Virus record (IMG/VR): IMGVR_UViG_3300042898_003369
Span: 1-49,450 of that record
Reading direction: 5' to 3' (one strand)
Source: a virus
DNA: 49,450 nucleotides
Shown here: piece by piece, positions 5,798-44,010 of the stretch
Position numbering within the stretch: the first letter of the stretch is position 1
How the letters are laid out: every line of letters begins with the position of its first letter
Translations under genes and position numbers: made by a program
Notes under the pieces: generated by a model
Seen by the model: only the letters and a program-made list of their open reading frames with translations
What the model was told of the DNA's origin: nothing
Database searches by the model: none

Positions 5798-5825
5798 AAA
5801 CCCCTAGGAGAAATCCTGGGGGTTT
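5798..5825 (+). terminator. Rho-independent-type terminator after nrdJ/tRNA-Asn
   Basis: A 12-bp stem (AAACCCCTAGGA with TCCTGGGGGTTT, one G-T pair) closes a GAAA tetraloop. Only three T follow before A/T-rich sequence, so termination may be partial. It ends the early/middle operon just before the late promoter at 5825. Confidence 0.75.
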
Positions 5826-5832
5826 ATAAATA
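5825..5832 (+). promoter_or_regulatory. T4-type late promoter
   Basis: Exact TATAAATA, with 5 nt (TTGGT) before the ATG at 5838. In T4 the late box lies at about -13 to -6, so transcription should begin at the start codon. It shares one T with the upstream terminator stem. Confidence 0.8.
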
Positions 5833-5837
5833 TTGGT

Positions 5838-7736
5838 ATGCTGTCATTTAAACAATACTTAATAGAAAAACAAGAAGATACCAAATATGGTGGTATGAAT
5901 GTACCATTAGATCTTGCTGATTTTCCTGATAATCAAAATGGTTCAATGATAAGTCCAGTAAATTTTTCTGGTACAGCTTTGAATCCTGTAAAATATACAC
6001 GAACAGATCGTGATGCTTATGATACAGCATTAAAACTTAAAAATGAGAAAATTTTAGCAAATAATCAAAAATTTGGATTATCTGATGAAATTGATGAAAC
6101 TCCTTTTGAAGATGCATTTAATAATACTAGGAAATATATTGAAAGTACGGTGATGGATCCAGGTAATAAGGAGAACGAGCCACGTTCACCTGAGGATATG
6201 AAATCATCCAGGACATTCTCCAGTACAGGAACTATGAATCAACCTCCAGATTTAGGACAAAAAGGATGGTTGGGTTCTATATTAAATCCAGATAATCCAC
6301 TTGACGCTGGATCATTGCATACTGATTTGTTAAGACAAGTCAAAGATAAAGGAACTCAGATATCTCAAAGATTTAATGATTTCACAAATTTTTTACGTAG
6401 TAATGATCCTTTTGATTATGCATTTTCAAAAAATTATAGAGAAAGAAAAAAATTAAATAGTCCATTATGGCAAGCACACAATGAAGCCGGAGAAAAAGAA
6501 GCAAGAAATGCAAGGTTAGGTGTAACTCCTTCAGTTGTTAATCCAAATCCACCTGAAAATTATCATGACTCACAAGATTATTTTGATAGAATAACAGGAA
6601 TTGCAAATACTTTATATAATGCTAATACTATGTTCGTAAAGAAAGAAAATCAAAAATTATCTCCATTTGATATGATTTCTTTAGAATTTGGAAAAGATAA
6701 AACCAAAGAAAGAAATGACTTTTTAGCAAAACAAAAAGAATATTTGAAACGTTCTGGACCAAATGATTTAGATTATAGTGATCAAGCAAAATTAGCTAGA
6801 CAATATGCAGATTTAAGAGATCCAAAACATGATGAAGCAATGCTTTATAAGCCATTAGAGATAACTCATTTTGATAAAACTGGTTACAGATACTTTGATC
6901 CACCCGAAGCTTTCTTAGGAAGAAACAACGTAAAATACCCTGAATTAGTTGATGCTAAATTAACATGGAATGTTCAACATCTTCTAGATCCATATTCTAC
7001 TTTTAATAAAGCTCAACGAGATAAGAAAACACCACAATTACCAGTTGATCAATCTGTTCAAAAACTAATTGATAATCAAATGAGTAATGCGCCAAATACT
7101 TTTGAAACTACAATTGATATGAATAAAGATAATATTAAAGATTGGGATCAATATATTCAGGTTATGAATCATGAAGGTCAACATGCAATAGGAACTCAAT
7201 TACGAGGAGTTGCTGCAGTTGAAAATGCAGTTAGTTCTAATTTAGAAAAAAAACCAGAATATAAATCTCCTGCTACTATTAAATATGGTATTGAACCTTC
7301 GACAAGTGGAATTGCTTTAGGATCTGGTTATGAAGAATTAGAAAAAAGAGGAATTTTAGATAGTTGGGAATTGACTCCAGAACAAAAAGAGACTGTAAAA
7401 ACTGCATTAGATCAGATGGATACTCCAACTCCTTCACCAGATAATAGATTTAAAACTCCTAATAATTATTTTTGGAGTAGAGCTGAAATGCCTGCATTTA
7501 TGAGAGATATTAAAGGTAGATTATTAAAATCAACAGGTAGTTATCCTATGAGTGATCAAACAGATGAAGAAATAGAAAAAGATAGAGATAGAATGTATAA
7601 GCTTCTTCAACAAAATGGACCAGGTGAAGATCTAGCACCGGTAAAAGCTCTTGAAATGATGGGAACCCCAGAAGGTAAAGCCATATATAGAGGTGTAGAA
7701 AAATCTTCATCGAAACAAGATAGACGATATGCCTAA
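5838..7736 (+). CDS. Late protein with capsid-targeting-like N-terminus and HExxH zinc-protease motif
   Basis: The 632-aa protein starts MLSFKQYLIEK, a match in pattern to T4 internal-protein targeting peptides that end in a (L/I)xE cleavage site. Residues 445-449 are HEGQH (VMNHEGQHAIG), the zinc-binding HExxH of metalloproteases. Glu550 in RAEMPAF is a candidate third ligand, because the other late zincin (37707) has a similar EIPAQ. The middle is Asn/Asp/Lys-rich and low in complexity. Residues 18-31 carry a GGMNxPxDLxDFPD motif also found in the 9225 gene. I infer a protease carried in the head and possibly delivered to the host. A structural role with an accidental HExxH is the alternative. 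Confidence 0.7.
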   Translation: MLSFKQYLIEKQEDTKYGGMNVPLDLADFPDNQNGSMISPVNFSGTALNPVKYTRTDRDAYDTALKLKNEKILANNQKFGLSDEIDETPFEDAFNNTRKYIESTVMDPGNKENEPRSPEDMKSSRTFSSTGTMNQPPDLGQKGWLGSILNPDNPLDAGSLHTDLLRQVKDKGTQISQRFNDFTNFLRSNDPFDYAFSKNYRERKKLNSPLWQAHNEAGEKEARNARLGVTPSVVNPNPPENYHDSQDYFDRITGIANTLYNANTMFVKKENQKLSPFDMISLEFGKDKTKERNDFLAKQKEYLKRSGPNDLDYSDQAKLARQYADLRDPKHDEAMLYKPLEITHFDKTGYRYFDPPEAFLGRNNVKYPELVDAKLTWNVQHLLDPYSTFNKAQRDKKTPQLPVDQSVQKLIDNQMSNAPNTFETTIDMNKDNIKDWDQYIQVMNHEGQHAIGTQLRGVAAVENAVSSNLEKKPEYKSPATIKYGIEPSTSGIALGSGYEELEKRGILDSWELTPEQKETVKTALDQMDTPTPSPDNRFKTPNNYFWSRAEMPAFMRDIKGRLLKSTGSYPMSDQTDEEIEKDRDRMYKLLQQNGPGEDLAPVKALEMMGTPEGKAIYRGVEKSSSKQDRRYA

Positions 7737-7846
7737 ATATTTTAGGCAGAAGTGGTTGGGCTTCCACGCAATCCTTTTGAAATAATCGAAGTATACTTCA
7801 TCAGACTGCTAAGGAACCACCACTTCTGACCAAGGTATAAGTACAT
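7737..7846. other. Intergenic region with inverted repeat and 12-bp palindrome
   Basis: No gene. CAGAAGTGG (7747-7755) and CCACTTCTG (7820-7828) form a 9-bp stem around a 64-nt interior. That interior contains the perfect palindrome GAAGTATACTTC (7788-7799). The palindrome includes TATACT on both strands, the -10 box used elsewhere in this window, but I find no convincing TTGAC box at 16-17 nt on either strand. It could be an operator, a weak bidirectional promoter or a structured leader for the resolvase gene. Confidence 0.5.
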
Positions 7847-8395
7847 ATGTTCCACATGTTAATCGGCATTGATTACTCTATAACCTGCCCCTGCCTTTGT
7901 CTTTATGATGAACGTAGAGAATTTAAGTTTGAAAATTGTTTCTTTTATTATTTGACAAATACCAAAAAGTATGCTGATAAAATTGCCCCAAATATTACTG
8001 GGGAATCTTTTCAGGAATATATTCTGGATGTTGATAGATTTGACACTATATCTCAATGGGCTTCCAATCTTTGTATTGGGGCTGGAGATATAGCCGTAGA
8101 AGGATATTCATTCGGTTCTAAAGGTCGAGTATTCAATCTAGCGGAGAATATGGGAATCTTGAAGCATAAGCTCTACAAGCTCGCCATTCCCGTGACCATC
8201 ATTGAGCCATCCCGAGTCAAGAAATGCGCTACGGGCAAAGGTAACGCTGACAAACAGGCAATGTACGAAGCCTTCTCAATAGAAACAAAAACCAATCTTT
8301 TATCGGTCTTTAATCAGAAAACTTTGAGTAATCCTGTTACGGATGTTATCGACAGTTATTATATTTTAAAGGCAATGATTCAGTCTAAAAATTAG
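7847..8395 (+). CDS. RuvC-like Holliday-junction resolvase
   Basis: A 182-aa RNase H-fold nuclease that would resolve branched replication and recombination DNA before packaging, the role played by gp49 in T4. The acidic catalytic set is visible: Asp9 in MLIGIDYS, Glu85 in AVEGYSFGSKGR, and Asp166/Asp169 in PVTDVIDSYYIL. The segment EPSRVKKCATGKGNADK is the typical RuvC substrate loop. The ATG at 7856 (MLIGIDYS) is an equally plausible start because family members begin right before the first strand. Neither has a strong ribosome-binding site. It converges with the FmdB-like gene, overlapping it by 4 nt. Confidence 0.85.
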   Translation: MFHMLIGIDYSITCPCLCLYDERREFKFENCFFYYLTNTKKYADKIAPNITGESFQEYILDVDRFDTISQWASNLCIGAGDIAVEGYSFGSKGRVFNLAENMGILKHKLYKLAIPVTIIEPSRVKKCATGKGNADKQAMYEAFSIETKTNLLSVFNQKTLSNPVTDVIDSYYILKAMIQSKN

Positions 8396-8697
8396 CGAAC
8401 AATACGTCCAGCATTCATTCTGGCACTATTATCTAATTTTTCATGAAATCTCTTAGGTACTTGACCGCTACCCTTAATTTTGTCAATTACGTCTTTAAAT
8501 TGACTTCCAACTACTTTTGAAGGTGTCAGAGTGGAATCCATTGCAAGTGATGGTGTGTTTGCTTGCCAATCCTTTATAATTTTCTTTTTACTGCACTTTG
8601 GGCAGGGTTTCTCTAAAGGAGTATTACGCTCTGATAGATTTAAGATTTCATCAAAAGTATGGTCACAATTTTCACATTTAAAAGCATAATTAGGCAT
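8392..8697 (-). CDS. FmdB-type zinc-ribbon protein
   Basis: A 101-aa protein. It starts MPNYAFKCENCDHTFDE with CxxC at 8/11 and a second pair CPKC at 32/35, the FmdB putative regulatory zinc ribbon. The rest is basic and probably flexible. Its start overlaps the end of the HNH gene by 8 nt, so the two are cotranscribed. The role is unknown in general. In phages such proteins are assumed to bind nucleic acid or act as small regulators. Confidence 0.85.
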   Translation of the reverse strand: MPNYAFKCENCDHTFDEILNLSERNTPLEKPCPKCSKKKIIKDWQANTPSLAMDSTLTPSKVVGSQFKDVIDKIKGSGQVPKRFHEKLDNSARMNAGRIVR

Positions 8698-9184
8698 TTT
8701 TTTTCCTTCTAAAGGTAATTAGCATGGCTTCAAACAAGAATCCATAAGAAGGTTCTTTTGGTTTGATTTTTAATTCCATTTTGGCTTCTTTAAGGGTTCT
8801 GTTTCCTTTTGCCAAATTACAGCATCTACATGCTGCTACCATATTTACCCAAGATGATGCACCACCTTTTGATTTTGGTATAATATGATCAACTGTTGCA
8901 TCTTTGTTATTTAAAGCAACTCCACAGTATTGACAACAAAATTGATCTCTACGTAAAATATTTTGCCTAGAAGAAGCTGCCTTTCTATAAGGCAATTTTA
9001 CATAATATTTTAAAATTAAAACTTTAGGAATCTTTATAATTTTGGAAATAGAGACAACTTCAAAACATTCATTACTTTCATCACTCCAAACTTTATCTCG
9101 GGCAATGAGTTTGTATGCTTTTCCAATAGTAATAATATTAAGAGGAGTATTGTCTTGATTTAGCAAGAGTACTTGTTTCTTCAT
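8690..9184 (-). CDS. HNH endonuclease
   Basis: A 164-aa protein with a complete HNH nuclease core. It has CQYC (Cys84/87), the catalytic VDHIIPKSKGG with Asp99-His100, Asn114 in WVNMVAAC, and the second zinc pair CRCC near 119-122. The N-terminal 75 residues are an uncharacterised domain seen with HNH cores in other phages. I start at ATG 9184 rather than the in-frame ATG at 9226. The product then begins MKKQVLLLNQDNTPL, and a late-promoter-like CATAAATA lies 10 nt upstream. It could be a homing-type or a packaging-related nuclease. Nothing here decides between them. Confidence 0.85.
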   Translation of the reverse strand: MKKQVLLLNQDNTPLNIITIGKAYKLIARDKVWSDESNECFEVVSISKIIKIPKVLILKYYVKLPYRKAASSRQNILRRDQFCCQYCGVALNNKDATVDHIIPKSKGGASSWVNMVAACRCCNLAKGNRTLKEAKMELKIKPKEPSYGFLFEAMLITFRRKKNA

Positions 9185-9194
9185 ATTCTTTAAG

Positions 9195-9202
9195 TATTTA
9201 TG
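9195..9202 (-). promoter_or_regulatory. Late-promoter-like box upstream of the HNH gene
   Basis: CATAAATA on the minus strand, 10 nt before the ATG at 9184. It lies 4 nt from an oppositely oriented box at 9207-9214 that serves the plus-strand gene at 9225, giving a divergent late-promoter pair. Confidence 0.45.
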
Positions 9203-9206
9203 TAAA

Positions 9207-9214
9207 TCTAAATA
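9207..9214 (+). promoter_or_regulatory. Late-promoter-like box upstream of 9225
   Basis: TCTAAATA, two mismatches from TATAAATA, lying 10 nt before the ATG at 9225. The same variant occurs at 23631 with the canonical 5-nt gap. Confidence 0.5.
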
Positions 9215-9224
9215 TTTAATAACC

Positions 9225-12020
9225 ATGGATAATAAACAAGATAGACAATTTTATTGGGAAGTCAAGCAATTTATGGGGAATTCTCCAAATCCTGTTCCAC
9301 AGGAAAAGAAAAATTCTCCTTCATTGGTTGAAAACATAAAAAATGTATTAAACAAGAATGAGTTGTATAGACCATCTTCGTTTAATCCATCTATTAGTTC
9401 TCCAAATACTATTAATAATGCTATTGGTGCAATGGAACAATCTAAGAATTTAGGGGCTTCACATAGTGCAGCACATGGTAGTAATGTCTATGGAAATGCT
9501 TTTGCTAATACTCCAAAAAATTTAAATGAAAAAGCAGGTGATTGGAATTGGAGAGAACACACCAAAGAAGAAAATATAGCACAGGGAATAAAAGTTAGAG
9601 ATAAACAAGATATAGATGATAGAAAAAAACTTGATAAATTTCGTAGAGAAAACCCAGATGCATATCAACAACAACTACAAGATAAAGCAGCAGGACAAGA
9701 AAGAGCATTAACTACTGTAAATGCAAATAAAAGAATTAGTCCAATGTACTGGGTTACTCAGGATGATTTTAAAAAGGCAACTGGTGAAGATTATGATGCA
9801 AGAAATGCAAAACACAGACAATTATTTTTTGATTTAAATTCTTCAGGTGAATCAAATGTTGCTCCAACCGCTGGTGTAGGACAGGGGCCTGCATACGATA
9901 GTCTTGCATACCATACCATGCGTCGTAGACCAGCCAATATTCCACAATTTGGAACTCCACAGGCTAGGTATGATACTGTAGATGGTACCATAGCCAATAC
10001 AACATCACAATCACGAGGCAAAGCTCAATGGGATGCCGATGATGCTGCAGCATTAAAACGTATTGATGCGGAAGCAGCTAAACGAGATGCAGAAATTAGA
10101 GCAGAAGCTAGAAGAATTGTTGGTGCTGAACAAAAAGCTGCTGCCTTGAAAAATGCTACAGATACAAAAGAAAAAAGACAAGGCTACATAGATCAAATTA
10201 GTGATACTCTAAACAAAGATGGTTCTAGAACAATTAAAGAACCTATACGAGGAGATGGTGGTGGAAATTTTGATGTTCAACTTAGAGATAATAATGATGA
10301 AAATTTGTATGGAAGTGGAACAGCTGCTGATCCTATTAGATATAGTCCTTATGTAGACCGATCCAAACCTGGAACAGGTATATCAGACGCTCAACGTTCT
10401 GTTACTGATACTGCAACAAATACACTTCAAGATATGATGAGAAGCGGATCTGATTGGATGAAAAAACAATCACTGAATTCTCCAGGTGTTCGCTATCCTG
10501 AAACTGGAGTAAATCCTGATGTTAACCGTGGAGAGTCTCCAATTTATCCTGAAGGTCAAGTAGATTCTACTTATAGACAACCTCCTGGTGTTGGAGTATC
10601 CAATATTATTAATAATCTGGTTACATCTGTTGGAGCTTCTGGAAAAAATGTTGCAGCTGAATTACAAAGAATAATGAAGTTAAATACAGCACAAACTAAT
10701 CCAAATGTTATACAAGATAAGTTGTATGGTGATATATCTGCTCCGATGATGGATACACAAGCAAAAACTCCTTCAGAACCACCAGCATACTCATATACAA
10801 TTCCAAGTCCGTTTAATCCAGATATAAAAACTGAACTAGATGCTGAAGATTATAATATAAAAGATGATAGTGAATCCACTGGTGGAATGAATGAACCAAT
10901 GGATCTCTCTGATTTTCCTGATAAAAAAGAAACAACATCAAAACCTGCTGGAGATTATGTAAAAGATATTATTAAACCTTTCCAAGATGCTGCTGATCAA
11001 CAATCAACACAAGATAAAATTAATGATATATTAAAAAATCTTGGTACATCAGATAGCAAAAAGACATCTAGAAGAAGTAAAAGAAAACGTAAAGAAACCA
11101 CAAGAGTGGCTATGGTAGGCGAAGCAGTTGTAATTCCTCCTCCTTTTTTTAGTGGAAAAGAACTTCGTACAGACTTAATTGGTAATCCAAATCCAGTTCC
11201 TACATTTACTAGTATAGGCAAAGGTGTAGCCAATACAGTAATGAATCCTGTAGATTCTGCAAAATCTGCAGTAAACATGGCAAAAAAAGGTGTTTCTGCT
11301 GTTGAATATGCTGTAAAAAATCCAATTCCAGCAGCAACAACTGTTGGAAAAACTGCTTTACAAGTAGGCGGTGCCTTAGTTGTCCCTTTAGTTGCTGGTG
11401 AATTAGCTCGTAGAGGTGCAGAACTAGGTACTGATTATATTGGTATGGATCCAGCTACTGAAATGAATGAATTACCAAATTTAAGCAAAGAAATACAAAG
11501 TGTTGCAGATTGGTCAGCAATGTCTGGTGCTGGACAGGTATATATGAATGCTTTGAGAGGTGCTCCTTTAGTATCAGGTTTAGGAACTCAATTAGTATCT
11601 GGTGCAATAGGTGGTGCTCTTGTTCCAGTTGTAGCTTATGGTGGATTTAAAGCTGGAGAAGCTTTGCGTGATTTTGAAACTCCACAAATGTTAGGTCTTG
11701 AAGTTGCTGACAAAGTTACGGGAAAAACTAGACCAAAAACATATGCAGAAACTGGGGAAGATATTGTAAATTATGTTGTGGGTGATAGTGAAACTGATAG
11801 AGCTAAAGAATATCGTATGCGTAGAGGTATGCCAACTCAACAAGAATATGCTCCAGAGCCAACTAGATACCCGTCTAGTGCTGAATTGGAATATCACACA
11901 CGTAAAGAAAGAGAAAGAAACAGAAATTTAGCTACAGAGATTCCATCTCCAATGCAGTCTACTACATGGGATAAGGTAAATAAACCATCCTCTGGATTTG
12001 TAAGAGCTCCAAAATTATAA
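9225..12020 (+). CDS. Large late protein, 931 aa, with Ala/Gly-rich hydrophobic C-terminal region
   Basis: Unrecognised. Residues 1-650 are hydrophilic, rich in Asn, Asp, Lys and Arg, with a probable coiled coil near 270-320 (many Ala/Glu/Arg, ADDAAALKRIDAEAAKRDAE). A basic patch (SRRSKRKRKE) lies near 615-625. From about 660 to 810 the chain turns Ala/Gly/Val-rich with hydrophobic stretches such as VGGALVVPLVAGELARRG and VSGAIGGALVPVVAYGG, which could be membrane-active. Residues about 552-566 repeat the GGMNxPxDLxDFPD motif of the 5838 product. I infer a virion or injected protein, because of the late promoter and these membrane-like segments. The function is unknown. Confidence 0.65.
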   Translation: MDNKQDRQFYWEVKQFMGNSPNPVPQEKKNSPSLVENIKNVLNKNELYRPSSFNPSISSPNTINNAIGAMEQSKNLGASHSAAHGSNVYGNAFANTPKNLNEKAGDWNWREHTKEENIAQGIKVRDKQDIDDRKKLDKFRRENPDAYQQQLQDKAAGQERALTTVNANKRISPMYWVTQDDFKKATGEDYDARNAKHRQLFFDLNSSGESNVAPTAGVGQGPAYDSLAYHTMRRRPANIPQFGTPQARYDTVDGTIANTTSQSRGKAQWDADDAAALKRIDAEAAKRDAEIRAEARRIVGAEQKAAALKNATDTKEKRQGYIDQISDTLNKDGSRTIKEPIRGDGGGNFDVQLRDNNDENLYGSGTAADPIRYSPYVDRSKPGTGISDAQRSVTDTATNTLQDMMRSGSDWMKKQSLNSPGVRYPETGVNPDVNRGESPIYPEGQVDSTYRQPPGVGVSNIINNLVTSVGASGKNVAAELQRIMKLNTAQTNPNVIQDKLYGDISAPMMDTQAKTPSEPPAYSYTIPSPFNPDIKTELDAEDYNIKDDSESTGGMNEPMDLSDFPDKKETTSKPAGDYVKDIIKPFQDAADQQSTQDKINDILKNLGTSDSKKTSRRSKRKRKETTRVAMVGEAVVIPPPFFSGKELRTDLIGNPNPVPTFTSIGKGVANTVMNPVDSAKSAVNMAKKGVSAVEYAVKNPIPAATTVGKTALQVGGALVVPLVAGELARRGAELGTDYIGMDPATEMNELPNLSKEIQSVADWSAMSGAGQVYMNALRGAPLVSGLGTQLVSGAIGGALVPVVAYGGFKAGEALRDFETPQMLGLEVADKVTGKTRPKTYAETGEDIVNYVVGDSETDRAKEYRMRRGMPTQQEYAPEPTRYPSSAELEYHTRKERERNRNLATEIPSPMQSTTWDKVNKPSSGFVRAPKL

Positions 12021-25679: not shown

Positions 25680-28600
25680 ATGCATCCACTTTTACTTAAT
25701 ACTAATATTACATACACTGTTCTGATGCCGACTCAATTATTTGGTCTCATTGAACATCCTGTGGTTGGATATTGGAAACAAGGTGAAACTTGGGGTAATA
25801 CAGCTGGGCTTACCTATATGTGGCATTATGTTAAGTATCCTACTGGTATTCTTGGACCAAAGGGTGCTTGCTTGGATGCAGGTCAATTTCCTAGAGCAGA
25901 TGGAACAAATACTCCACCAACGGTATCAGAATGGCCTGGAGCGGGAAGCCAAAATATTTCTGATATTGATTGGTCTATAAGTCCATGGAATACATCCACT
26001 GGTTATATTGGAATGACATTTGGTTCTCCAGGTTTTATAACAAAATCAGATGTTGATGACATTATACGAAACTATTCGCATATTCCAAATAAATACCGAA
26101 CATTTTACCCACCAAGATCGTGGAGAGCTTTAGACGGAATTGGTGTAGGACCAATAGGTATTACTGGAACAGAATATATTACTATTGATACAGCGGGTGG
26201 TACTCAAACTTATCGTACTCATTGGTTAAAACGTAAAATAAATTTTCTTAGTAATGAATTAAATACTGTTTATAGATATATGGGTTTATCTGGATTTACT
26301 TGTGCTCATTTTGATATAGATGATGAATATTTTGGTATGGCTGGGATCGGGGATATGAGAGGTATTGGTACTATTGGGCTTCGTCCTTCTGTTACTAATG
26401 GTGGTAATAGTTTTATTAATAACGTAGTATATCCAGCAAATTCTCAAAATAGTTCTAACTGGTATGCAAATTTTAATGGAATATGTGCGGTTCCAGATTC
26501 ATTAATATTACAAGGAATTACATCTAATAGAGCTTTTCTTTTAAGAAGAGGATTTACTACTACCAATGGAAACTGGAGAAATGTTGATGGGTTAACAGCT
26601 CTTGGAAATTGTTCTGCTCAAGGAAATATTGCTGCAGGTGGAACTCCATTTGCATCGTGGTTTGGACCAGAATACTATAGTGCATGGAAAGATTGGGTTG
26701 GATATTTTATCACGGATCTTATTACTGATTTTAAACAAATAAATGGAATTTGTGCCGATAATTCTTTATCTGCTGATTATGACTATTATAAGACAAATGC
26801 CGAAATACATAATTATTCTAATCCAACACCAAGTGGTACATCAAATTCTCCAACAATTTTAACAAAATCTGCTTCCGATTATGTTCCATTTACTTCACCA
26901 ACAGCCTTTCAAGATTTGGGTGTATTTAATTATTATTCATATAATGATCATGGTAATTTAGGTTCTTTTTATAATACATATAGTTCAGTTGCTGGGGATA
27001 TTTCTAGTACTGCATTTTATGGTCCGGCAGAGGTTGATGTGTATGCCAATGGCGAATACCAAATTGACAGAACATTAGATCAAAGAGGCAATAGTTATGG
27101 ATTTGCTTTTGGTGGAAATACATTTGGTAAAGCTCTTGTTCAAGTATATGAGTATTATTTTGGTTTATATAGTAAATTCAGATTTTCAAATCCTTCGTTG
27201 TGGAATCAAAATGATGCCCGTAAATGGATACCCGCAAATTATCTTGGATCAACTGCTCCAGGACAGTTAGTAACATGTTTTACATGTGCTGAAACTCTTG
27301 GTAATTGTGGTTTCTTTAAATTTGATCCAACTGGTATTAATGGATCGAGTGCTGCAAACCAAAATAAAGTTGGATTTGATCGGACACCAGCATATATTGG
27401 CTGGCATTTAAATCCGGTTTGGGGAATTAATGTTCAGACTTTTAATGGTGGTGCTACATTAGGACCAGTAAATTATATTCCAATCAGAGGATTTGATGTA
27501 CTTGGTGGTTTATCAGCTGGTGCAGAATCTAAAAGAAAGCTTGGTGGCTCTACTACTTGGAGTACATTAACAGGTGCTTTAGATCCATGTGGAAATCCAG
27601 TTCCAGGTAATACTTTACCACCTGGAACAATTTATAATAACTATTGGTCACACTGGTATCCAATGGCATATATGTCTCTTCTTGAACAAGTAAGATTTGG
27701 AAGACACGTTGCCAGAGTAAATGTTGCTGATGCAGTAAATCAAAGAAATGACCCAACCAATTATCCTGGAATAAGTGGTTCTGCATGGAATAAAATTCAA
27801 AAACCAATTCAAGTATGGATTGCTAGTCAAAAATATTTTACTAATAGTACAGATATATCTGATAATAAACCATTTTCCAATTATATGTATATTCCACAAG
27901 GAGTAACATTTAATTATACTTTAACAACAAGTATGGCTACAGGTATTACATATATCTATGGTGATGTTGGACCCATGTATTATGAAAATATGAGACACCA
28001 ATATTTAAATAAAGTTGGTAAGTTTACATATTATAATCCACCAGATCATTATACTACAACATCAATTTCAAATACTCCACCATATGTTACACAAAATGGT
28101 GTTTTTCCCAAGTATTATCCACAAGCTAATACTCAAACTCCACAAAGAGTTGGTGGCATCACATCATTTGGTGTCTGTGGTGCGATGATGCTTTCGGATG
28201 TTAGAAAAGTTAATACAATTATTGGTGAATGCCACACTGTTGGTAATGGTACTGTTAAAGAAACATTATATCTTGCTCCAGTAAATATGGATGAGAGATC
28301 ATATTTGATTTCTGGTGCACAAAAAATAAATACTAATTTCCTTTGGCGTATTACATTTGCACATCCAGCAACAGATCCTGCACCCATTATAGTTCGTGGT
28401 ATGTGTTCTGGTATTACTACAGCATACAATATCAGTGGAGTTACAGATTACATCAATAATCCAAATAATAAATTTGGTATATGGTGGAATAGTGGAAATC
28501 TGGAAATTCCAATTGTTGAAAACCCACCAGTATCTGAAGCACAAAGACTGAATACATTAAGTCTTCCAGAAAATCCAAAGTTTATGTTCAATGCAGAAAC

Positions 28601-31600
28601 TACTGCTGAATCTAGAAACATTGTTCCTAAAAATTATGTAAACCCAGATCTTTTCTGCACACTTAATTCACCATATGGTTATTGGAATCAAGCAGAACGT
28701 TGGGGCAGTCAAAATGGTTTGACATATATGTGGCCCAATGTAGAATTTATTCGTGGAAGAAATGGCCCAAGTCAAAGTGATTTAAATGCAGGAATATTTC
28801 CACCGAGTGCTGGTGTAGATCAAGGATGGACTGGTGTTGGATATAATAATTTTCCTGATGTTGATATCGATATGTCAACCTTTCCATGGAATAGTGCAAC
28901 AGGTTATATTGGTTTAACCTTTGGTGCAACTGGTTTTTATAGTATTGCTGGATTAAACCGAGTAATTCAAGACCACAGTTGGATTCCAAACAAATATAGA
29001 GTTGTGATGGCAAGTAGGTGGTGGAGAGCAGAATCTAATAGTCCGATTATGGATACCGAAGCTATTGTGTTAACTGGTGATCGTAGATCTTCTACCGCGT
29101 TTAAAACCCCATGGTTAAAACGCAAAATGAATTTCCTACGTGCCGAGTTAAAGGCAATATATTCACATCTTTCTGCTAATGGTTTTACCATGGCACATTT
29201 TGATTTAGATGATGAAATATATGGTTATCTAGACTATCGTGGTATTGGTATATCCGGAGGAATACGTATTGGTGATTCCAATTTTTATTCAAAATGGCTC
29301 TATCCTAATAATACACCAACTGGATCTAAATGGTATTCAACATTTTATGGTGCATCTGCTGCTCCAGATTCTTTTATTACTCGTGGCATCACTTCTATGC
29401 GAGCAAACCTTTTGGCAAAGGGATTTACAAGTAATCCATCAAATTGGAGATATGTTGAAGGTTTGACTGCCATAGGTGGATCTATTGATAATGTACCAGG
29501 AAATCTTGCAGGTGATGGGTCATTTGAAATTTTAGGATATGAACATCAAGCTGCAATTAAAGATTGGTATGCTGGTCACTGGACTGATATGGTAGATGAT
29601 TTTAAATTATATAATGGAATTGTTGCCGACAATTCATTATCTGCGGATTATGGATATTACAAATTAAATAATGCAGTAATTAATTTTACAAATCCATCTT
29701 ATACAAATAATTTTTATGTAAATAATACTAAAGATCATATTAGTGATGCATTAACTCGTACAAGTACTGATTATGTTCCGTTTGTTACTAATAATATTAC
29801 ATCAGCATCTGATAAAAGAATGCAAGATTATTATCAGTATAATGATGCATTTAGTTTAGAGTCGTGTCAAAATTTATATACAGAACAAGTAGGTGATGTT
29901 GGTTCAATACATGCCTACGGCGGTATAATGGCAGATATTGACCCAAATAGCAATTCTCCAAGAATTATTGATAGAAATTTAGATTGGAGAGGTAATACAT
30001 ACGGATTAGTCATCAATGGTATTACATATGGTAAAAATGTTGGTGGTTGGTATTGGTCGTGGGGAGCAATGGGTAGAAAATATGGATATTCTTCTCCCGA
30101 AGCAAGTACAACATATGCTAAAAAATGGGTACCTGCAAATTGGGTCGGAATCAGTGGACCTGCACAAATACTTCAATGCTATTCATGTGCTGAAATAATG
30201 GGAAGTACTGGGTTCTTTAGATATGATCCTACAGGATCTAATGGTTCCTGCGCAGCAAGTATAACTAAAGTTGGTTTTGATAGAGCACCACATTATATTT
30301 CCTGGCATTTAAATCCAGTATGGGGAATTAATGTTAATAGACTATCGTCTGGTTATGTTGCAGGTCCAGCTAATTATATACCATTATATGGTCCCGATAC
30401 ATTAAATGGATTATCTTTTGGAGGCAAAACAAAATATTGGACGGGAGCCAATACTACTATTTCAGTTGATAAAGTAGATCCTTGTGGTAATCCATTCCCA
30501 GGAAATACATTGCCTGCTGGAACAATTTATAATAATTATTGGACTCATTGGTATCCAATGGGATATATGGCATTAATGTCAGACGTTAAGTGGGGAAGAC
30601 AAGTAGCCAAATCAAATGTAGCGAAAGCAATATATGAAAGAAATGATCCTAACAATCATCCCAAGATAACAGGAAGTAATTGGTACGGAATACAAAAACC
30701 AATTAATACATGGGTTGCTCATCAAAAATGGACTAGTGATGCTAGCCTAGACATTAGTGATGAATCTAATTTATTTGGTAGTGCATATTATATTCCTGAA
30801 GGATTAACATTTGGATATCGTACTAGAGTTGATGCAGAATCAACTCAATTAGACGGCTTTACATTTATGTATGGTGAAGCAGGACCAATGTATTATGAAA
30901 ATATACGCCATCAGTATTTAAATAAAACTGGACGTTATTCTTATTGGAATCCTAGTATATATGATATGACTGCTTCGGATGGAACTCCATTATCATTTAT
31001 GAATGAATCAGTATGTTTTGGTGGAAGACGATACACTCAAGCACAAACATCTCCAACAAAAATTGGTGGTCTTACTTGCATGGGTATATGTGGTGCTATT
31101 AAAATGGCACTCGCAAGAAAAATTAATACTGTTATTGGAGAATGCCAAACTATTGGTAATGGTACTGTGTGGGAAACAACATATCTTGCTCCAATGAATA
31201 TGGATGAAAGATCATACATTATCTCGGGGGCACAGAAGGTTGATGGTAATTATGTTTGGCGTATTACCTTTGCTCATCCAGCAACACAATCTCCAATTAT
31301 TGTAAGAGGATCTGTTAGTGGTATTACAACAGCATATTATGTAAATGGTATTACAAATTATATTGGAACTCCTAATAATAAATTTGGTATATGGTGGAAT
31401 ACAGACCGTTATGAAATTCCAGTAGTAGAAAACCCACCAGTATCAGAAGCAGAAAGATTAGGAGTTCTCAATCTTCCTGGAGCATCGGCATTTAGTTATA
31501 ACCCATTAACAATGACACAAGCTGTAGAAGCTTCCAATGGTATTGAGGTTGTTACTGATATTGTTAATCTATCATTTAATGCTACCGAAAGAGCCGCAAC

Positions 31601-34923: not shown

Positions 34924-34931
34924 TATAAATA
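34924..34931 (+). promoter_or_regulatory. Late promoter of the 34937 gene, predicted leaderless
   Basis: Exact TATAAATA with 5 nt (ATATT) to the ATG at 34937, placed 4 nt after the giant gene's stop. Confidence 0.85.
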
Positions 34932-34936
34932 ATATT

Positions 34937-35674
34937 ATGAAACACTTAGAAAACTATTACCGTAATCTTTGCGAACAACTTCAGTCCCAATTAGAAAATT
35001 CTTATCGGAACCTTTCCGAAGAACTTTCTTCTCAAATCAATCTTCTTGAGAAGAAATTTGATATTAGTAAATTTAAGAAATCCAAAAAGGGTGACAAAAA
35101 GGATGACAAAAAGTCTGGCAAGAAAGCCGATAAAAAGGCTAACAAGGACTATGATGGCGATGGTGAAGTAGAGTCATCAAAAGATGAATACTTTGGATCC
35201 AAGGATAAGGCTATCAAGAAGAAGATGGCTGAGAAAAAGAAGATGATCAAGGAAGGTCGTGAAATCCATGGTGGTATCATGAACTATGGTGGTTTCCCAA
35301 GAGTTTCAAGACTTCTTAATGAAGTAAGCGCAGTCGATGCGTTTAATGATGGAGATGACGAACCAGGCGATGAACAAGTTGCTACTCAACCAGATTTATC
35401 CAGAGTTAGTCTTTTTACCGGATACGGTGGAAAGCCAGTGGAATATGATGTTGGTAGTGACGAAGGATTGTCAGGAGCATTACGGCACATTAGAGGTATT
35501 AGAACCGGAATGGATGCTGCCGATTCTAGAGAAAATATTCGTCAAAGTGAGTTAGATGCAGACAAGGAAAACACCAAATTTGAAGATCAACTTATTAAAA
35601 TGGCAAAAGCTAGAAAACTAAAAGTGCAACACCAAGGAATCGGTGGTAGTTACTTAGTGGATTATGGTTCATAA
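34937..35674 (+). CDS. Lys-rich late protein with EF-hand-like loop; probable prohead core or packaged protein
   Basis: The 245-aa helical N-terminus ENYYRNLCEQLQSQLENSYR contains a short internal duplication (YRNLCEQL / YRNLSEEL) and ends in NLLEKK, with LLE (36-38) as a possible protease site. A very Lys-rich stretch (residues 45-70) leads to DYDGDGEVESSKDEYFGSKD (71-90). That is an EF-hand-like Ca2+ loop motif I know from T4-like phage head proteins. LLNEVSAVD (126-) is a second potential cleavage site. The C-terminal ~110 residues are acidic. A role in the prohead core or as internal protein is inferred. Confidence 0.7.
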   Translation: MKHLENYYRNLCEQLQSQLENSYRNLSEELSSQINLLEKKFDISKFKKSKKGDKKDDKKSGKKADKKANKDYDGDGEVESSKDEYFGSKDKAIKKKMAEKKKMIKEGREIHGGIMNYGGFPRVSRLLNEVSAVDAFNDGDDEPGDEQVATQPDLSRVSLFTGYGGKPVEYDVGSDEGLSGALRHIRGIRTGMDAADSRENIRQSELDADKENTKFEDQLIKMAKARKLKVQHQGIGGSYLVDYGS

Positions 35675-37679: not shown

Positions 37680-37687
37680 TATAAATA
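37680..37687 (+). promoter_or_regulatory. Late promoter of the 37707 gene
   Basis: Exact TATAAATA. It is followed by a two-codon frame ATG AGA TAG at 37690-37698, then the real ATG at 37707, 19 nt from the box. The mini-frame begins 2 nt after the box, so it may lie partly outside the transcript. Confidence 0.8.
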
Positions 37688-37706: not shown

Positions 37707-39200
37707 ATGGATCAATTAACAAATTTATACAAAACTCGCTGTGACAATATTCAAGAAAAAATTAATTATTGTCAAAATTTGTTAAATGAAGGTGGAGTAG
37801 GTGATATTGTTAAAATGGTAAAGTCGGCTGGAGAAATATCTAAAGCAGCAGAGGTTGCTAAGGTTGCCAGAGTTCCCGGAGAAATTGCAAAAGAATTTAA
37901 ACCACTTCAACAAGCAGCAACTGAAGTTATTGATACTGCTAAAACGTGGGAAAAAAATCGATTTGGAAAACCTGTTTATGATTTTAATCTGACGGATCCC
38001 TTTAATCAACAGTTTTTAAATACAAGAGTTGCTGCAACTCCAGGAAATATTAAATCCGTTGAATCAATAGGGGGTGTTGTTCCTGATATAGACAAACCTC
38101 TAACAACTTTAACTGGAATGGACGTTTTACAAGGAATATATGGAAAGAAAGCCGCATCATATGCTGAATTAGCAGACAAAGCACAAAAACTCCAATTAAG
38201 AGGAAATTATTTACAGCCAGAAAAACCTAGTGAATTTTTACCTCCAGATTATACTAAAGCAGCATTAGAAAAACCTGTTGATATTCACGTTGGGACACAT
38301 TATGGAACAGATAAAGTAAAACCAGGGCGTGCTGACTTAACTCCTGGTGTTGGTGCTGGAGCATTTTCTATGGATGCACCACAAAGAATATTAAATGGTC
38401 AAAGAGTTCCAGCAATTAATATGAACATTACACAAGTAGCACATCCAAATTTACAAGGGGAAATGCCTGGTATTATTGCTCATGAATGGACACATGTTTC
38501 TGGACATCAGAATCCTAATTTTGCATTAGCTGGTGTTATGGATTATGGTCATACTACACCTGGAAATATTACTAAAAATTTATTAGGTAAAATTGATGAT
38601 GTCTATAAAAAGACTGGTACAGATGTTCGTTCATATTATGCTGATGCTATTCCATCAACAGATGCAGGATTATTTGATACGGCTTTCCGCACGGTAGATC
38701 ACACTCACAAAATGCAAAGAGGATTTGCAAAAGAAGTTGATACGGCTAAAACCTTTAGTGATTTATCACCAAAATCACAGAGTTTTATGGATGCTGAATT
38801 AAAAAAACATTTAACTAGAACTTATGATTTGCAAACAGAGTTTCCTAGATTAAAACAATATATACGAGATACCGCGTTAAAAAATGCAATTGGTAGCAGA
38901 GACTATTTAAGTAATAGAGAAATTCCTGCACAAATTACAAGTGCAAAAGCATGGATGGAGAAAAAAGGTCTACCACATATTGATATTAACATGCCCTTTG
39001 AAACATCTAAGAATCTTGGTAAAGAATTATTGGATAAGTATAAACAAGGAAAATTCCCAGAACTTCAAGGGTCACCTGAAATCATGCAAATGCTTGATAT
39101 GCTTCAGCATCCTAAAGGTAAAAAATTATTTGATATGATTGCTAAGAATAATAAAGGATCTGATGTATCTCAGAAGATTTCTGGAATGCAAAAGGCTTAA
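37707..39200 (+). CDS. Late zinc-metalloprotease-like protein with LNE-ended N-terminus
   Basis: The 497-aa N-terminal helix DNIQEKINYCQNLLNEGGVG has a potential prohead-protease cut after LNE (26-28). Residues 259-267 are HEWTHVSGH within MPGIIAHEWTHVSGHQN, a strong HExxH zinc motif with an extra His at +8. Glu405 in REIPAQ is a candidate further ligand and is similar to EMPAF in the 5838 product. Upstream VDIHVGTHYGTD and downstream MDYGHTTPG are Gly/His-rich. I infer a peptidase packaged in the head; its substrate could be a host or a virion protein. The late promoter is exact. Confidence 0.75.
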   Translation: MDQLTNLYKTRCDNIQEKINYCQNLLNEGGVGDIVKMVKSAGEISKAAEVAKVARVPGEIAKEFKPLQQAATEVIDTAKTWEKNRFGKPVYDFNLTDPFNQQFLNTRVAATPGNIKSVESIGGVVPDIDKPLTTLTGMDVLQGIYGKKAASYAELADKAQKLQLRGNYLQPEKPSEFLPPDYTKAALEKPVDIHVGTHYGTDKVKPGRADLTPGVGAGAFSMDAPQRILNGQRVPAINMNITQVAHPNLQGEMPGIIAHEWTHVSGHQNPNFALAGVMDYGHTTPGNITKNLLGKIDDVYKKTGTDVRSYYADAIPSTDAGLFDTAFRTVDHTHKMQRGFAKEVDTAKTFSDLSPKSQSFMDAELKKHLTRTYDLQTEFPRLKQYIRDTALKNAIGSRDYLSNREIPAQITSAKAWMEKKGLPHIDINMPFETSKNLGKELLDKYKQGKFPELQGSPEIMQMLDMLQHPKGKKLFDMIAKNNKGSDVSQKISGMQKA

Positions 39201-41433: not shown

Positions 41434-41461
41434 ATGATACCATATCTAGAGTGAATGTCAA
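41434..41461 (-). promoter_or_regulatory. Sigma70-type early promoter, predicted leaderless
   Basis: On the minus strand: TTGACA, 16 nt, TATCAT, 6 nt (ATTGGT), ATG at 41427. It overlaps the last codon of the upstream 41458 gene. Confidence 0.82.
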
Positions 41462-41892
41462 ACAACTCGTTTACGTTTTAATGAAATAAGTGCAGCCATT
41501 CCTAACATCAACCCCATGCCCGGAGAAGGAACAGGAGTAGGCGTAACACCACCTGATTCTGTCATCTGCAACGAACCCATTGAGATGCTTTCGATTCGAT
41601 CATACATGATTGGAATAGCAAACTGCTGATCAACCATCTGAATGGTCTTGACCAATACTCCCCCATTGTAGATTTTATAGATCCATAGACCATCAGCCGT
41701 TCCCATAAACAAATTTGATGAAAAACTTGTAACGGCAACTGTAGGGGGCTCAATGGCTTCAGCCCAAGGTTCCATCATGGTATATGCAGAGTCAAAGGTC
41801 AACCTGTTTGTATATGAAACTTCCACATACATAGAACCCTCATACACAGAATCATGAAACATCTGACCAGTAGAGTAGAGTCTAGAAATCAT
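41458..41892 (-). CDS. Protein with C-terminal PEP-CTERM-like sorting signal
   Basis: The 144-aa protein is beta-rich for its first 110 residues (SMYVEVSYTNRLTF, GLWIYKIYNGGVLVKTIQ). It ends with a Thr/Pro linker, PVPSPG, a hydrophobic span GMGLMLGMAALIS and a basic end KRKR. That tripartite end is the exosortase (PEP-CTERM) signal pattern. Normal substrates also have an N-terminal signal peptide, and none is visible from either candidate start. I use ATG 41892 because a promoter with the standard 6-nt spacing points to it. It is either an acquired host surface protein that lost its signal or a phage decoy. PEP-CTERM in a phage is unusual. Confidence 0.75.
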   Translation of the reverse strand: MISRLYSTGQMFHDSVYEGSMYVEVSYTNRLTFDSAYTMMEPWAEAIEPPTVAVTSFSSNLFMGTADGLWIYKIYNGGVLVKTIQMVDQQFAIPIMYDRIESISMGSLQMTESGGVTPTPVPSPGMGLMLGMAALISLKRKRVV

Positions 41893-41898
41893 AGAGTT

Positions 41899-41926
41899 AG
41901 TATACACCATATGGTTAAAGAGTCAA
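41899..41926 (-). promoter_or_regulatory. Sigma70-type early promoter, predicted leaderless
   Basis: On the minus strand: TTGACT, 16 nt, TATACT, 6 nt (AACTCT), ATG at 41892. It decides the start of the PEP-CTERM-like gene. It is 2 nt from the late box at 41929. Confidence 0.85.
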
Positions 41927-41928
41927 GA

Positions 41929-41936
41929 TATAAATA
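41929..41936 (+). promoter_or_regulatory. Late promoter of the FLxE operon, predicted leaderless
   Basis: Exact TATAAATA with 5 nt (TCTAC) before the ATG at 41942. It is the only promoter I find for the five overlapping genes that follow. Confidence 0.85.
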
Positions 41937-41941
41937 TCTAC

Positions 41942-42346
41942 ATGAAGAGTTTCAAAAATTTTTTAATTGAGTCAAATGATCTTACCGAAGAGAAAGATGC
42001 CTGCTATCGTAAAGCAATGGCTTCTTATGGTAAGTGGTCAGCCCGTGCAGCCCAAGCAACCGCCAAGTGCCGCAAAGGCAAGGGACAGGTCAAAAAGTCT
42101 AAAGAAGGTGCAAACCTGAAGAGATGGGAAGCAGAGGATTGGAAGGATACTAAGACTGGTAAGGACTGTGGTGCAGGGGGTAAGAATGAGTATTGCAGAC
42201 CAAGCAAGAGAGTCAGTAGTAAGACTCCAAAGACATCATCAGAGATGTCATCAAAGGAATTGCAACGCAAGAAGGCAGAGAAGTCACGAGTAGGAATGCA
42301 GGGAGCATCGGGTAACAAAGTATCACCAACAAAGAGAAACACATGA
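41942..42346 (+). CDS. Basic DUF5872-like protein with capsid-targeting-like N-terminus
   Basis: The 134-aa protein starts MKSFKNFLIESND, with a predicted cut after LIE. The rest is Lys/Arg/Ser-rich and matches a domain I know from large DNA viruses and phages (DUF5872). Marks: KRWEAEDWKDTKTGKDCG, NEYCRPSKRVSSKTPKTSSE and ELQRKKAEKSRVGM. The strong positive charge and the late timing would suit a DNA-associated internal head protein. It is the first gene of a five-gene operon with 4-nt ATGA overlaps. Confidence 0.8.
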   Translation: MKSFKNFLIESNDLTEEKDACYRKAMASYGKWSARAAQATAKCRKGKGQVKKSKEGANLKRWEAEDWKDTKTGKDCGAGGKNEYCRPSKRVSSKTPKTSSEMSSKELQRKKAEKSRVGMQGASGNKVSPTKRNT

Positions 42347-42810
42347 AAAGTTTTAAAGAATTTTTAAGAGAAAATGATTCGCTTACTGATTTTGATAAAC
42401 AAGAAATCGAAAATGCAGCGATGAATCCAAACCAAAATGAAACCCCACGTGAAAGAAAAAACCGAGAAGCACAAGAACTGATTAGAAATCAACAAAACTT
42501 GCGAACAACGGCTATGAATCCTTCTGGTTCACCTGAATTTTTTGATAATGAATTACATATGAATAAACCTCAAGGAATTCAAACAGAATATGAAGATAAA
42601 GAAGAAATGTCTGTTTTGGATATGGCAGCAATAACCGCAAGAGGAACTTTAAATGCAATGGGACAGGTGTTTGGTGGTATTACACCTATACAAAAACCAA
42701 AACCAAATAAACCAACACCAACACCAACACCAAGCCCGTTTGACGATAATTATGTGGCTTCACCAACAACAGGATCTAGGTTTGGATATTCGGATAAAGA
42801 AAACAAATGA
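42343..42810 (+). CDS. Protein with capsid-targeting-like N-terminus and short Pro-Thr tract
   Basis: The 155-aa N-terminus MKSFKEFLRENDS has a predicted cut after LRE. The body is hydrophilic and rich in Asn/Glu/Pro (NAAMNPNQNETPRERKNREA), with one mildly hydrophobic helix (VLDMAAITARGTLNAMGQVF). PTPTPTPSPF near the end resembles the PT linker of the 13537 product. It is probably largely disordered. Second gene of the operon. Confidence 0.75.
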   Translation: MKSFKEFLRENDSLTDFDKQEIENAAMNPNQNETPRERKNREAQELIRNQQNLRTTAMNPSGSPEFFDNELHMNKPQGIQTEYEDKEEMSVLDMAAITARGTLNAMGQVFGGITPIQKPKPNKPTPTPTPSPFDDNYVASPTTGSRFGYSDKENK

Positions 42811-43352
42811 AAAAATTTAAAGAATTTTTAAGAGAAGATGCACAGGAGTTCTCATCAGCCGGAACCAGCATCAACAAAAACAAACTTCCAACAGGATACT
42901 CAACTGTGCATAGAAAGATTGGTTGGAAGAAGGGAACTACGCATATTGATATCGGTGGGGGTAAGTTTGATAATGGTGTAGAATTTCTTAAAAATTTGGG
43001 GGTGAATGCTCATGTCTATGACCCGTTCAACCGACCCGAAGATCACAATAAGAGAGTCATGGAGACTGTAGGCAAACAGGGAGCAGATACCGCATCACTC
43101 TTCAATGTTCTGAATGTTATTAAGGAACCGGAGTACAGACAAGAAGCCTTAAGGACAGCACACTCAACACTCAAACCCGGTGGTAGAATCTTTATTGGCA
43201 TATACGAAGGGGATAAGTCAGGCAAAGGAAGAAAAACAAAGAAAGATTCATGGCAGAACAATTCCCCAACACAAGCATACCTAGATGATGTAAAGAAGGT
43301 ATTTCCGAATGCAACAATACAGCATGGAATGATACATGGAGTAAGAGAATGA
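42807..43352 (+). CDS. SAM-dependent methyltransferase-like protein with capsid-targeting-like N-terminus
   Basis: The 181-aa N-terminus MKKFKEFLREDAQ has a predicted cut after LRE. The remainder is a small Rossmann methyltransferase: motif I THIDIGGGKFDN, an acidic end of strand 2 in AHVYDPFNRP, the LFNVLNVIKE region, LKPGGRIFIGIYEGDKSGKG and a Trp-containing KDSWQNN. This matches a family of small methyltransferase-like proteins often found in phage and plasmid accessory regions. The substrate is unknown. As the targeting peptide implies packaging, a role right after injection is possible. No DNA-methyltransferase (DPPY-type) motif is seen. Confidence 0.8.
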   Translation: MKKFKEFLREDAQEFSSAGTSINKNKLPTGYSTVHRKIGWKKGTTHIDIGGGKFDNGVEFLKNLGVNAHVYDPFNRPEDHNKRVMETVGKQGADTASLFNVLNVIKEPEYRQEALRTAHSTLKPGGRIFIGIYEGDKSGKGRKTKKDSWQNNSPTQAYLDDVKKVFPNATIQHGMIHGVRE

Positions 43353-43522
43353 GAAAATTTAAAGAATTTTTAGAAAATTATGATGTGTATCTTGATGTAG
43401 TACCACCATTTAGTAATATATCTCAACAAAAGGATATTACCAATTCAGAGACAGATACAGAAGTGTATACACCACAAGCAGATAAACTAAAGAAGTTAAA
43501 AGTTAAAAAGGTAAAACAATGA
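43349..43522 (+). CDS. 57-aa protein with capsid-targeting-like N-terminus
   Basis: Starts MRKFKEFLENYDVYLD, the same opening as its neighbours, but LEN in place of LxE removes the exact cut consensus. The rest is short, with a Pro patch (VVPPFSNISQQKD) and a Lys-rich end (KLKKLKVKKVKQ). The ATGA overlaps on both sides support it being a real gene despite its size. It may be a minimal packaged peptide. Confidence 0.7.
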   Translation: MRKFKEFLENYDVYLDVVPPFSNISQQKDITNSETDTEVYTPQADKLKKLKVKKVKQ

Positions 43523-43830
43523 AGAAATTTAAAACATTTTTGTATGAAGTAAATACACCGGGTGCAACAGGATCTGCTCCATCAGGGAAAGTTCCCAACA
43601 ATGGAGTATTAGTGCCAGTAGGACCAGGATATCCACCAAATAATCCTTTACCTACTCCATCGCCTACTCCACCACCGCCTCCACCACCAGCAGCACCACC
43701 TCCACCTATGTTTCCACCTCACAAGACACTTCCTCCATTACCAAAGTTACCACCGGACTTTAACAGACGTTTTAGGGGTGGTATGTACGAATATGACTCT
43801 AAAGATAAGACTTGGAAAATGGGTGGGTAA
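43519..43830 (+). CDS. Pro-rich protein with capsid-targeting-like N-terminus
   Basis: The 103-aa N-terminus MKKFKTFLYEVNTPG has a predicted cut after LYE. Then follows a Pro-dominated middle (PLPTPSPTPPPPPPPAAPPP) and a short charged C-terminal part (FRGGMYEYDSKDKTWKMGG). Last gene of the operon. Its stop lies in a G-rich tract (43821-43858). No globular domain is apparent except perhaps the last 30 residues. Confidence 0.72.
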   Translation: MKKFKTFLYEVNTPGATGSAPSGKVPNNGVLVPVGPGYPPNNPLPTPSPTPPPPPPPAAPPPPMFPPHKTLPPLPKLPPDFNRRFRGGMYEYDSKDKTWKMGG

Positions 43831-43860: not shown

Positions 43861-44010
43861 ATGAATTTTAAAGAAATTTTGAGAGTATGGAGTTTAGTGA
43901 CCACTCCTCAAAGCCTCTTTAAGCGTTCTATACGCCTCTCAGAGCCATCCGAGGGTCAAAAAGAACTCCAGAGACCCTTTAAGGCACCAATCGCCTATAT
44001 CCAGTCCTAG
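43861..44010 (+). CDS. Possible remnant of a sixth FLxE-type gene, 49 codons
   Basis: ATG 43861 opens MNFKEILRVWSLVTTPQ, whose first seven residues resemble the MKxFKxFL openings of the five preceding genes, but the LxE is missing. The remaining codons read through sequence with short inverted repeats and look non-coding. It may be a decayed copy whose body was replaced. I rate it as uncertain. Confidence 0.35.
   Translation: MNFKEILRVWSLVTTPQSLFKRSIRLSEPSEGQKELQRPFKAPIAYIQS

Follow-up and report, generated by a model that had tools for sequence, protein, structure and literature searches.

The window treated here, a stretch of 49,450 nucleotides of viral DNA (positions 1 to 49,450 of IMG/VR record IMGVR_UViG_3300042898_003369), contains five overlapping genes at positions 41942-43830, the products of which share the ten-residue start M[K/R]xFKxFLx[E/N] and then diverge. 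The best reading of this arrangement, which we regard as highly probable, is that of a capsid-targeting operon of the T4 internal-protein type. The leader carries the residues that direct and process a T4 internal protein, two bodies that follow such a leader in related phages are also found there behind a second, different one, and the genome encodes a gp21-type prohead protease; a cytidylyltransferase with such a leader has been reported from the virions of two cyanophages.

Operon layout and the ten-residue leader

The operon and its promoter comprise the following features (aa, amino acids; pI, isoelectric point):

41929-41936, + strand: late promoter element TATAAATA, T4-type, with 5 nt between its end and the first ATG (gene 1)
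41942-42346, + strand: gene 1, leader MKSFKNFLIE and a basic DUF5872 body, mature pI 10.02
42343-42810, + strand: gene 2, leader MKSFKEFLRE and a disordered-looking, acidic body (pI 4.84) without a family
42807-43352, + strand: gene 3, leader MKKFKEFLRE and a predicted class I S-adenosylmethionine (SAM) methyltransferase body, mature pI 9.55
43349-43522, + strand: gene 4, 57 aa, leader MRKFKEFLEN (Asn at position 10), mature pI 8.19
43519-43830, + strand: gene 5, leader MKKFKTFLYE and a Pro-rich body, mature pI 9.90

The list of open reading frames (ORFs) confirms the layout described in the first-pass annotation of this DNA, namely five overlapping genes with a shared start and diverging bodies, 4-nt ATGA overlaps (present at all four junctions) and a single exact late promoter ahead of the first gene. 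Its further statement that the leaders end in an LxE cleavage motif holds for four of the five products and fails for the fourth, which has Asn instead of Glu at the end of the tag, so that the LxE site is missing there. A strict DNA pattern for the tag, which cannot catch the fourth gene because of its Arg at position 2, matches the other four operon starts and nothing else in the window, with no match in the reversed control. With a looser tag pattern, 54 matches were obtained in the first 19 records, compared with 2 in the reversed control.

In T4 IPIII the first ten residues are enough for packaging, and mutagenesis assigned targeting to residues 4 and 7 and processing to residues 8 and 10, with Asp at position 10 blocking processing and leaving targeting intact (PMC9026906). 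The window leaders match this capsid-targeting sequence (CTS) at positions 4, 7 and 8 in all five products and at position 10 in four, and the likeness to T4 capsid targeting that had been noticed from the window alone thus extends to the very columns that matter in IPIII. By analogy with the Asp10 variant, the fourth product is predicted to be packaged yet uncut. The same columns stand out in twelve methyltransferase proteins, that of gene 3 and those of 11 relatives (54-87% identical to it), a set that is mostly, not wholly, selected by its body, since the six search strings included MKKFKEFL: K2, F4, F7 and E10 are the same in all twelve, Leu occupies position 8 in 10 of 12 (locus L012 has Phe there and L015 Ile), and positions 3, 5, 6 and 9 are more variable.

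The labels given earlier to two of the bodies stood up to profile searches, with DUF5872 on gene 1 at 6e-12 (46.6 bits, cut-off 27.5) and Methyltransf_23 on gene 3 at 2.7e-8 (34.2 bits, cut-off 27). At E <= 0.01, Pfam returned no family for the disordered, short and Pro-rich products of genes 2, 4 and 5; the sole significant PHROGs match among the five products was phrog_14016 (unknown function) for gene 3, and in NCBIfam, searched with genes 1-3 and with a separate tagged protein at 5838, the only matches were to methyltransferases, for gene 3 and below the cut-off. As modelled by AlphaFold (predicted template modelling score, pTM, 0.78), the gene 3 product has the class I methyltransferase fold, with a predicted local distance difference test (pLDDT) score below 50 for residues 1-22, which places the leader outside the confident fold. 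A Foldseek search of the PDB with this model returned SAM methyltransferases (best 1.1e-6) at a query TM of 0.38-0.62 and a high root-mean-square deviation, so that it is informative on fold class only. By profile and modelled fold the gene 3 body is a class I SAM methyltransferase; the fold of the model gives no answer as to its substrate. For comparison with the mature operon products, T4 IPII and IPIII without their leaders have pI values of 9.56 and 9.65.

In the mechanism envisaged, one late promoter would drive the whole operon, and the ATGA overlaps would couple the translation of its five genes. Phe4 and Phe7 of the leader would draw each product into the prohead core during head building, where a gp21-type protease would cut after (L/I)xE and set four bodies free within the head (DUF5872, disordered, methyltransferase and Pro-rich), with the Asn10 product remaining uncut. 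Once freed, the proteins would leave together with the DNA and take effect early in the host; the basic DUF5872 protein might bind DNA, for instance, and the gene 3 product methylate a target. That the genes of the window's phage are expressed late and their products packaged, cleaved and injected is what we infer, as are the functions of the bodies; delivery into the host would follow the T4 example.

Exchange of bodies and leaders among related phages

The swappable cassette postulated from the window is recognizable in its relatives. The methyltransferase was used to fetch 12 loci, one of which (L005) belongs to the window's own phage; in the 11 related contigs it keeps its tag, and neighbours and bodies vary, most of the changing neighbours remaining tagged. 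DUF5872 lies upstream of it in L005, L006, L007 and L016, and the gene directly upstream encodes a tagged protein of 228 aa in L011, a short FLEN protein in L008 and an untagged protein of 350 aa in L012; on the other side there is either the short protein or a tagged one of 201, 149, 145 or 135 aa. The short FLEN-type leader has Asn at position 10 in the window, in L006-L013 and in L015; L014 has Ser there, and L016 has Glu. The Asn10 FLEN leader may be regarded as a kept variant, for which the T4 data predict packaging without cleavage. A tagged 721-aa protein of L008 has its homologue in L015 split over several ORFs (7295-9468).

The same methyltransferase body is found behind MKQFCNFLAE in the vibriophage protein KVP40.0066 and behind MKSLTDYLEE in Vibrio phage D479_0170. 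It also occurs untagged in LR745208, an unannotated 485-kb phage record, with the likely start MTYSARTTRP... (by reading); no tag was found on the ORF upstream of it. Furthermore, in podovirus P-SCSP2 an untagged DUF5872 body belongs to a run of small genes with the scaffold gene on one side and the major capsid gene on the other, and in Roseobacter phage CRP-7 a pair of adjoining small genes, located beside the terminase gene, looks by eye like two parts of the window's DUF5872 protein. LR745208, P-SCSP2 and CRP-7 gave no match to the Peptidase_S77 (S77) profile or to the tag pattern.

The window corresponds to bases 573-50022 (reversed) of the 135,768-base IMG/VR contig G001, at 100% identity. 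Several proteins of G001 and its relatives possess a longer leader, built around YYKNL[S/C]EQLQ and followed by ...LxE, and this leader stands on many different bodies (G001 132046 and 132467; L008 10742 and 11375; L216-L281). A scan of IMG/VR for it yielded 67 stretches with 78 distinct proteins; [LIM]xE occurs within 30 residues past the core in 77 of the 78, as against 94 of 872 body windows, a figure that is helped by the repeat-like pattern of the long leader itself. At E up to 1, a 29-aa query of this leader, which is short and makes for a weak test, matched none of 50,697 phage records.

A search for swapped bodies comprised five loci, with a reading frame for four of them, L213 excepted. 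The NDETGK... body has the short leader in L209-L211 and the long one in L212/L228 (one contig), and the GLKKAL... body has the short leader in L214 and L215 and the long one in L239, L242, L256 and L260. In the clearest cases the break between leader and swapped body falls at LxE, and weaker cross-matches between short-leader and long-leader bodies are also present. Two bodies found behind either leader provide the strongest sequence argument for exchangeable address leaders, and the long leader presumably directs its proteins to the head as well.

These findings bear directly on gene duplication, according to which the five genes would be paralogues that retained an old N-terminus, without any address role, as the rest diverged. 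The head-to-tail gene order and the similar leader DNA would suit such an origin. It is opposed by the untagged homologues of two bodies, by the unrelated Pfam families to which tagged bodies belong and, strongly, by the occurrence of the same body behind two unrelated leaders in related phages, which together render duplication exceedingly improbable.

Prohead protease, virion proteins and T4 precedents

The gp21-like protease on which cleavage of the leaders would depend is indeed encoded in G001, in the form of a Peptidase_S77 ORF (E 3.2e-39). The contig also carries the gp23 major capsid gene (E 2.4e-135) in a head-gene neighbourhood of T4-like order (by reading), and the nearest annotated relatives of the capsid protein are Kyanoviridae-type phages at ~53% identity. 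An N-terminal alignment of gp23 from seven T4-like phages has [LIM]xE in each of them around the LTE stretch of T4, which we take to be the T4 cut site; the motif occupies the exact T4 columns in C48C1, G014 and G017, and precedes them by some columns in G001 (LYE), G003 (LVE) and G013. A protease motif in gp23, not column-exact, is plausible from this alignment.

Among the IMG/VR contigs tested for both genes, five had gp23 above the cut-off, and all five had S77 as well. Seven contigs without S77 were also without gp23 above the cut-off, and are therefore probably fragments; G006, G011 and G021-G023, put to the S77 test only, gave no match. A gp23-like match in G019 (8.4e-5, below the cut-off) was discarded, no capsid module being recognizable in the surrounding stretch. 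When 20 records of named phages are sorted by S77, the loose tag pattern is present in 12 of the 13 positive ones and in none of the 7 negative ones. The three matches in T4 are ipII, ipIII and gene 61.1. The last (NC_000866 18966-19130, - strand), a hypothetical protein of 54 aa, opens with the CTS-like MKTFKEFIKE, and judged by this start it is possible that gp61.1 is an unrecognised internal protein.

Virion detection is on record for relatives of this kind. In Synechococcus phage S-SM1 the tag pattern matches once in the whole record, at SSM1_190 (MKKFSAFLNE), annotated as T4-GC190, and purified virions of S-SM1 are reported by Sullivan et al. 2010 (PMC3037559) to contain T4-GC190, a putative cytidylyltransferase. 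In S-SZBM1 virions, the cytidylyltransferase SSZBM1_140 was detected with two peptides (PMC9146016); its start, MRFRQFIIE, is the tag minus one residue and agrees with the published length of 362 aa. Syn9 gp184 and P-SSM2_194 are tagged as well.

Whole-virion proteomes cannot separate head from tail, and are hence compatible with another destination of the tagged proteins, that is, the inner membrane, the tail or the baseplate instead of the head core. The amphipathic look of the leader and the lysozyme- or endolysin-like character of some tagged bodies would suit such a destination. Set against this are the T4 precedent at the same residues (PMC9026906) and the association of the tag with the S77 protease, so that another destination is given a slim chance.

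A scan of IMG/VR with the tag pattern gave at least 120 stretches and at least 80 loci among the matches listed. The tagged ORFs, at least 172 of them, group into 77 body clusters; the 172 include overlapping loci (L005/L006/L009 with L019-L036) and some chance matches, e.g. L031:19623. Pfam was run on 73 tagged proteins, made up of 69 cluster representatives (at least 60 aa) and 4 others. The families, of which 25 of 26 were listed, include DUF6267, DUF6321, ADPrib_exo_Tox, PolyA_pol, Zeta_toxin/AAA_33, CTP_transf_like, GNAT, HAD phosphatase, Glyco_hydro_19, DPBB_1 and Phage_lysozyme, each found in one or two proteins (ADPrib_exo_Tox in one), to which PHROGs (25 of 57 families) adds cytidyltransferases and endolysins.

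The closest precedent is that of T4 IPI, IPII and IPIII, which likewise carry a ten-residue N-terminus with similar residues 4, 7, 8 and 10 on unrelated bodies, in a phage with a gp21-type protease and a T4-type late promoter element. They differ in the leader, MKTYQEFIAE, from the M[K/R]xFKxFLx[E/N] of the operon, which moreover unites five genes in one overlapping unit and has one leader with Asn10; no similarity between the operon bodies and the T4 internal proteins was found in the Pfam and PHROGs searches. The internal proteins of T-even phages are described in reviews as a diverse set in which the CTS alone is conserved (PMC3012670, PMC9026906). T4 Alt, an ADP-ribosyltransferase that is packaged and ejected (PMC9026906), is another head-borne enzyme, and one tagged protein elsewhere matches ADPrib_exo_Tox; unlike Alt, the operon proteins have no ADP-ribosyltransferase match. 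The cyanophage T4-GC190 cytidylyltransferase is tagged in S-SM1, syn9 and P-SSM2 and has the tag shortened by one residue in S-SZBM1; its body does not occur in the operon, and the excerpts of PMC3037559 and PMC9146016 draw no link to the CTS. KVP40.0066 resembles gene 3 in tag and methyltransferase body and lies near gp24 and gp55, but stands outside any comparable run of tagged genes, with 32% identity over residues 1-129.

Several observations weigh against the capsid-targeting assignment. Virion detection comes from two other phages and not from the window's own, and the tagged proteins SSZBM1_191 (MKSFKSFLSE) and SSZBM1_192 (MKTFKQYITE) are missing from the 30-protein virion list of S-SZBM1 as excerpted from PMC9146016 (a third loose-pattern match in this phage lies at 4318). 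In 13 further named phages the loose pattern gave 14 matches compared with 7 in the reversed control, so that it has a real background and single matches need care; one match in Cr30 has an in-frame stop, and the matches in Aeh1 (a near-identical sequence, present three times) and in HTVC008M appear to be accidental, which makes 10 of 13 S77-positive records the safer count. S-PM2 has S77 and no tag-pattern match, and T4 ipI escapes the loose pattern. The conserved tag columns in the alignment of the 73 proteins are partly circular, as the set was picked by pattern, and LxE is a short motif, [LIM]xE being present in ~11% of the 30-residue windows taken from bodies. The tag of L015 comes after a TTG, with the longest ORF beginning six residues upstream. 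Lysozyme- or chitinase-like bodies stand behind a few of the tags, which is odd in a head unless they are used at entry. Finally, leader exchange at the DNA level (gene conversion or shuffling) was considered and rejected, as the codon test gave no clear excess or sign of such spreading: the same codon was used in 64% of within-record comparisons (expected 55%) vs 62% between records (expected 51%; a sample of 3000 pairs), and exact leader runs of at least 15 nt made up 12% within records vs 4% between.

Beyond this operon, T4-like phages may share a general delivery system with at least two interchangeable address codes (MKxFKxFLxE and YYKNL[S/C]EQLQ...LxE), each ending in a prohead-protease site. 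Bodies would move between codes and phages, an uncut Asn10 class would exist beside the cut one, the injected types would be many (methyltransferase, nucleotidyltransferase, ADP-ribosyltransferase, kinase, HAD and lytic enzymes), and T4 gene 61.1 would encode an overlooked internal protein; we give this picture a little better than an even chance. That the CTS may serve T4-like phages in general has already been suggested (PMC9026906). The T4 internal-protein kind is known; what looks new, judged by the open-licence literature searched, is the operon of five genes, the variety of bodies, the class with Asn10 and the second leader with its swaps. In that literature, six seven-letter leader strings did not occur, and no description of the tag in T4-like phages of other hosts was recognised from titles and abstract openings; the phrase 'capsid targeting' is used in papers on T4, SPN3US (PMC5694885, PMC7411985) and P1 (PMC9024508), and those on SPN3US and P1 may treat such leaders.

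Since such tags stand on many unrelated proteins in related phages, the tag is usable to predict injected proteins. If the reading is true, these become legible from sequence, ten residues flagging candidates for head packaging and host takeover even in unculturable T4-like phages, and many 'hypothetical' genes would gain a function. The tag would also point to new anti-defence proteins, a role published for T4 IPI (PMC3012670), and provide new targeting leaders, one of them naturally non-cleaved, for loading cargo into T4-like heads.

Promoter spacing and further features

Of the 19 TATAAATA sites in G001, 6 sit exactly 5 nt ahead of an ATG, the starts concerned being 41942, 5838 and 34937 in the window and, outside it, 133286, 133785 and an internal one near 132016 (elements at 133273, 133772 and 132029, respectively). 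A relaxed form of the element precedes the first tagged gene with a gap of 5 or 7 in L006, L007, L009 and L016. The T4 start-site rule would set +1 at the ATG of gene 1, and with a 5-nt gap late mRNAs would be leaderless or nearly so; the spacing suggests a leaderless mRNA for the operon.

Along these lines, the conserved start could be a signal at the RNA level, an AT-rich, weakly structured beginning that aids coupled or leaderless late translation, with the peptide as a by-product. The GC content of leader DNA (13-20%, vs 30-48% in the bodies) is in keeping with this, as are the ATGA overlaps with an upstream ORF at 51 of 134 tagged starts and the promoter-like element 5 or 7 nt ahead of 11 of them. 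On the other hand, 71 of the 134 lack an ATGA overlap and also have no promoter-like element within 12 nt, the same residue at position 8 is encoded by an identical codon in just 28 of 104 within-record comparisons, F and Y interchange at positions 4 and 7, and E10 is left unexplained. An RNA signal is therefore very unlikely, and the capsid-targeting reading is retained.

Further tagged or leader-bearing genes of the window are:

5838-7736, + strand: separate tagged gene, MLSFKQYLIE, 632 aa; TATAAATA at 5825-5832, 5 nt ahead of the ATG
34937-35674, + strand: second-leader protein, start MKHLENYYRNLCEQLQ...; TATAAATA at 34924-34931, 5 nt before the ATG
37707-39200, + strand: degenerate second leader, MDQLTNLYKTRCDNIQEKIN...LLNE, weak, by eye; TATAAATA at 37680, 19-nt gap

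A body similar to that of 34937-35674 follows the leader in L194 and L226 (by eye). At L036:6431-7264 (- strand) a tagged MLRFKEFLLE protein has a lysozyme-like body by eye. Directly past the operon, at 43861-43890, lies ATGAATTTTAAAGAAATTTTGAGAG (MNFKEILR), a decayed leader in appearance and perhaps the remnant of a lost cassette. Upstream, the divergent gene at 41458-41910 (- strand) encodes a product with the C-terminus PSPGMGLMLGMAALISLKRKRVV, which we take to resemble a PEP-CTERM sorting signal. A 3079-aa ORF contains an internal repeat, 28203-28547 and 31116-31457 being 77% identical.

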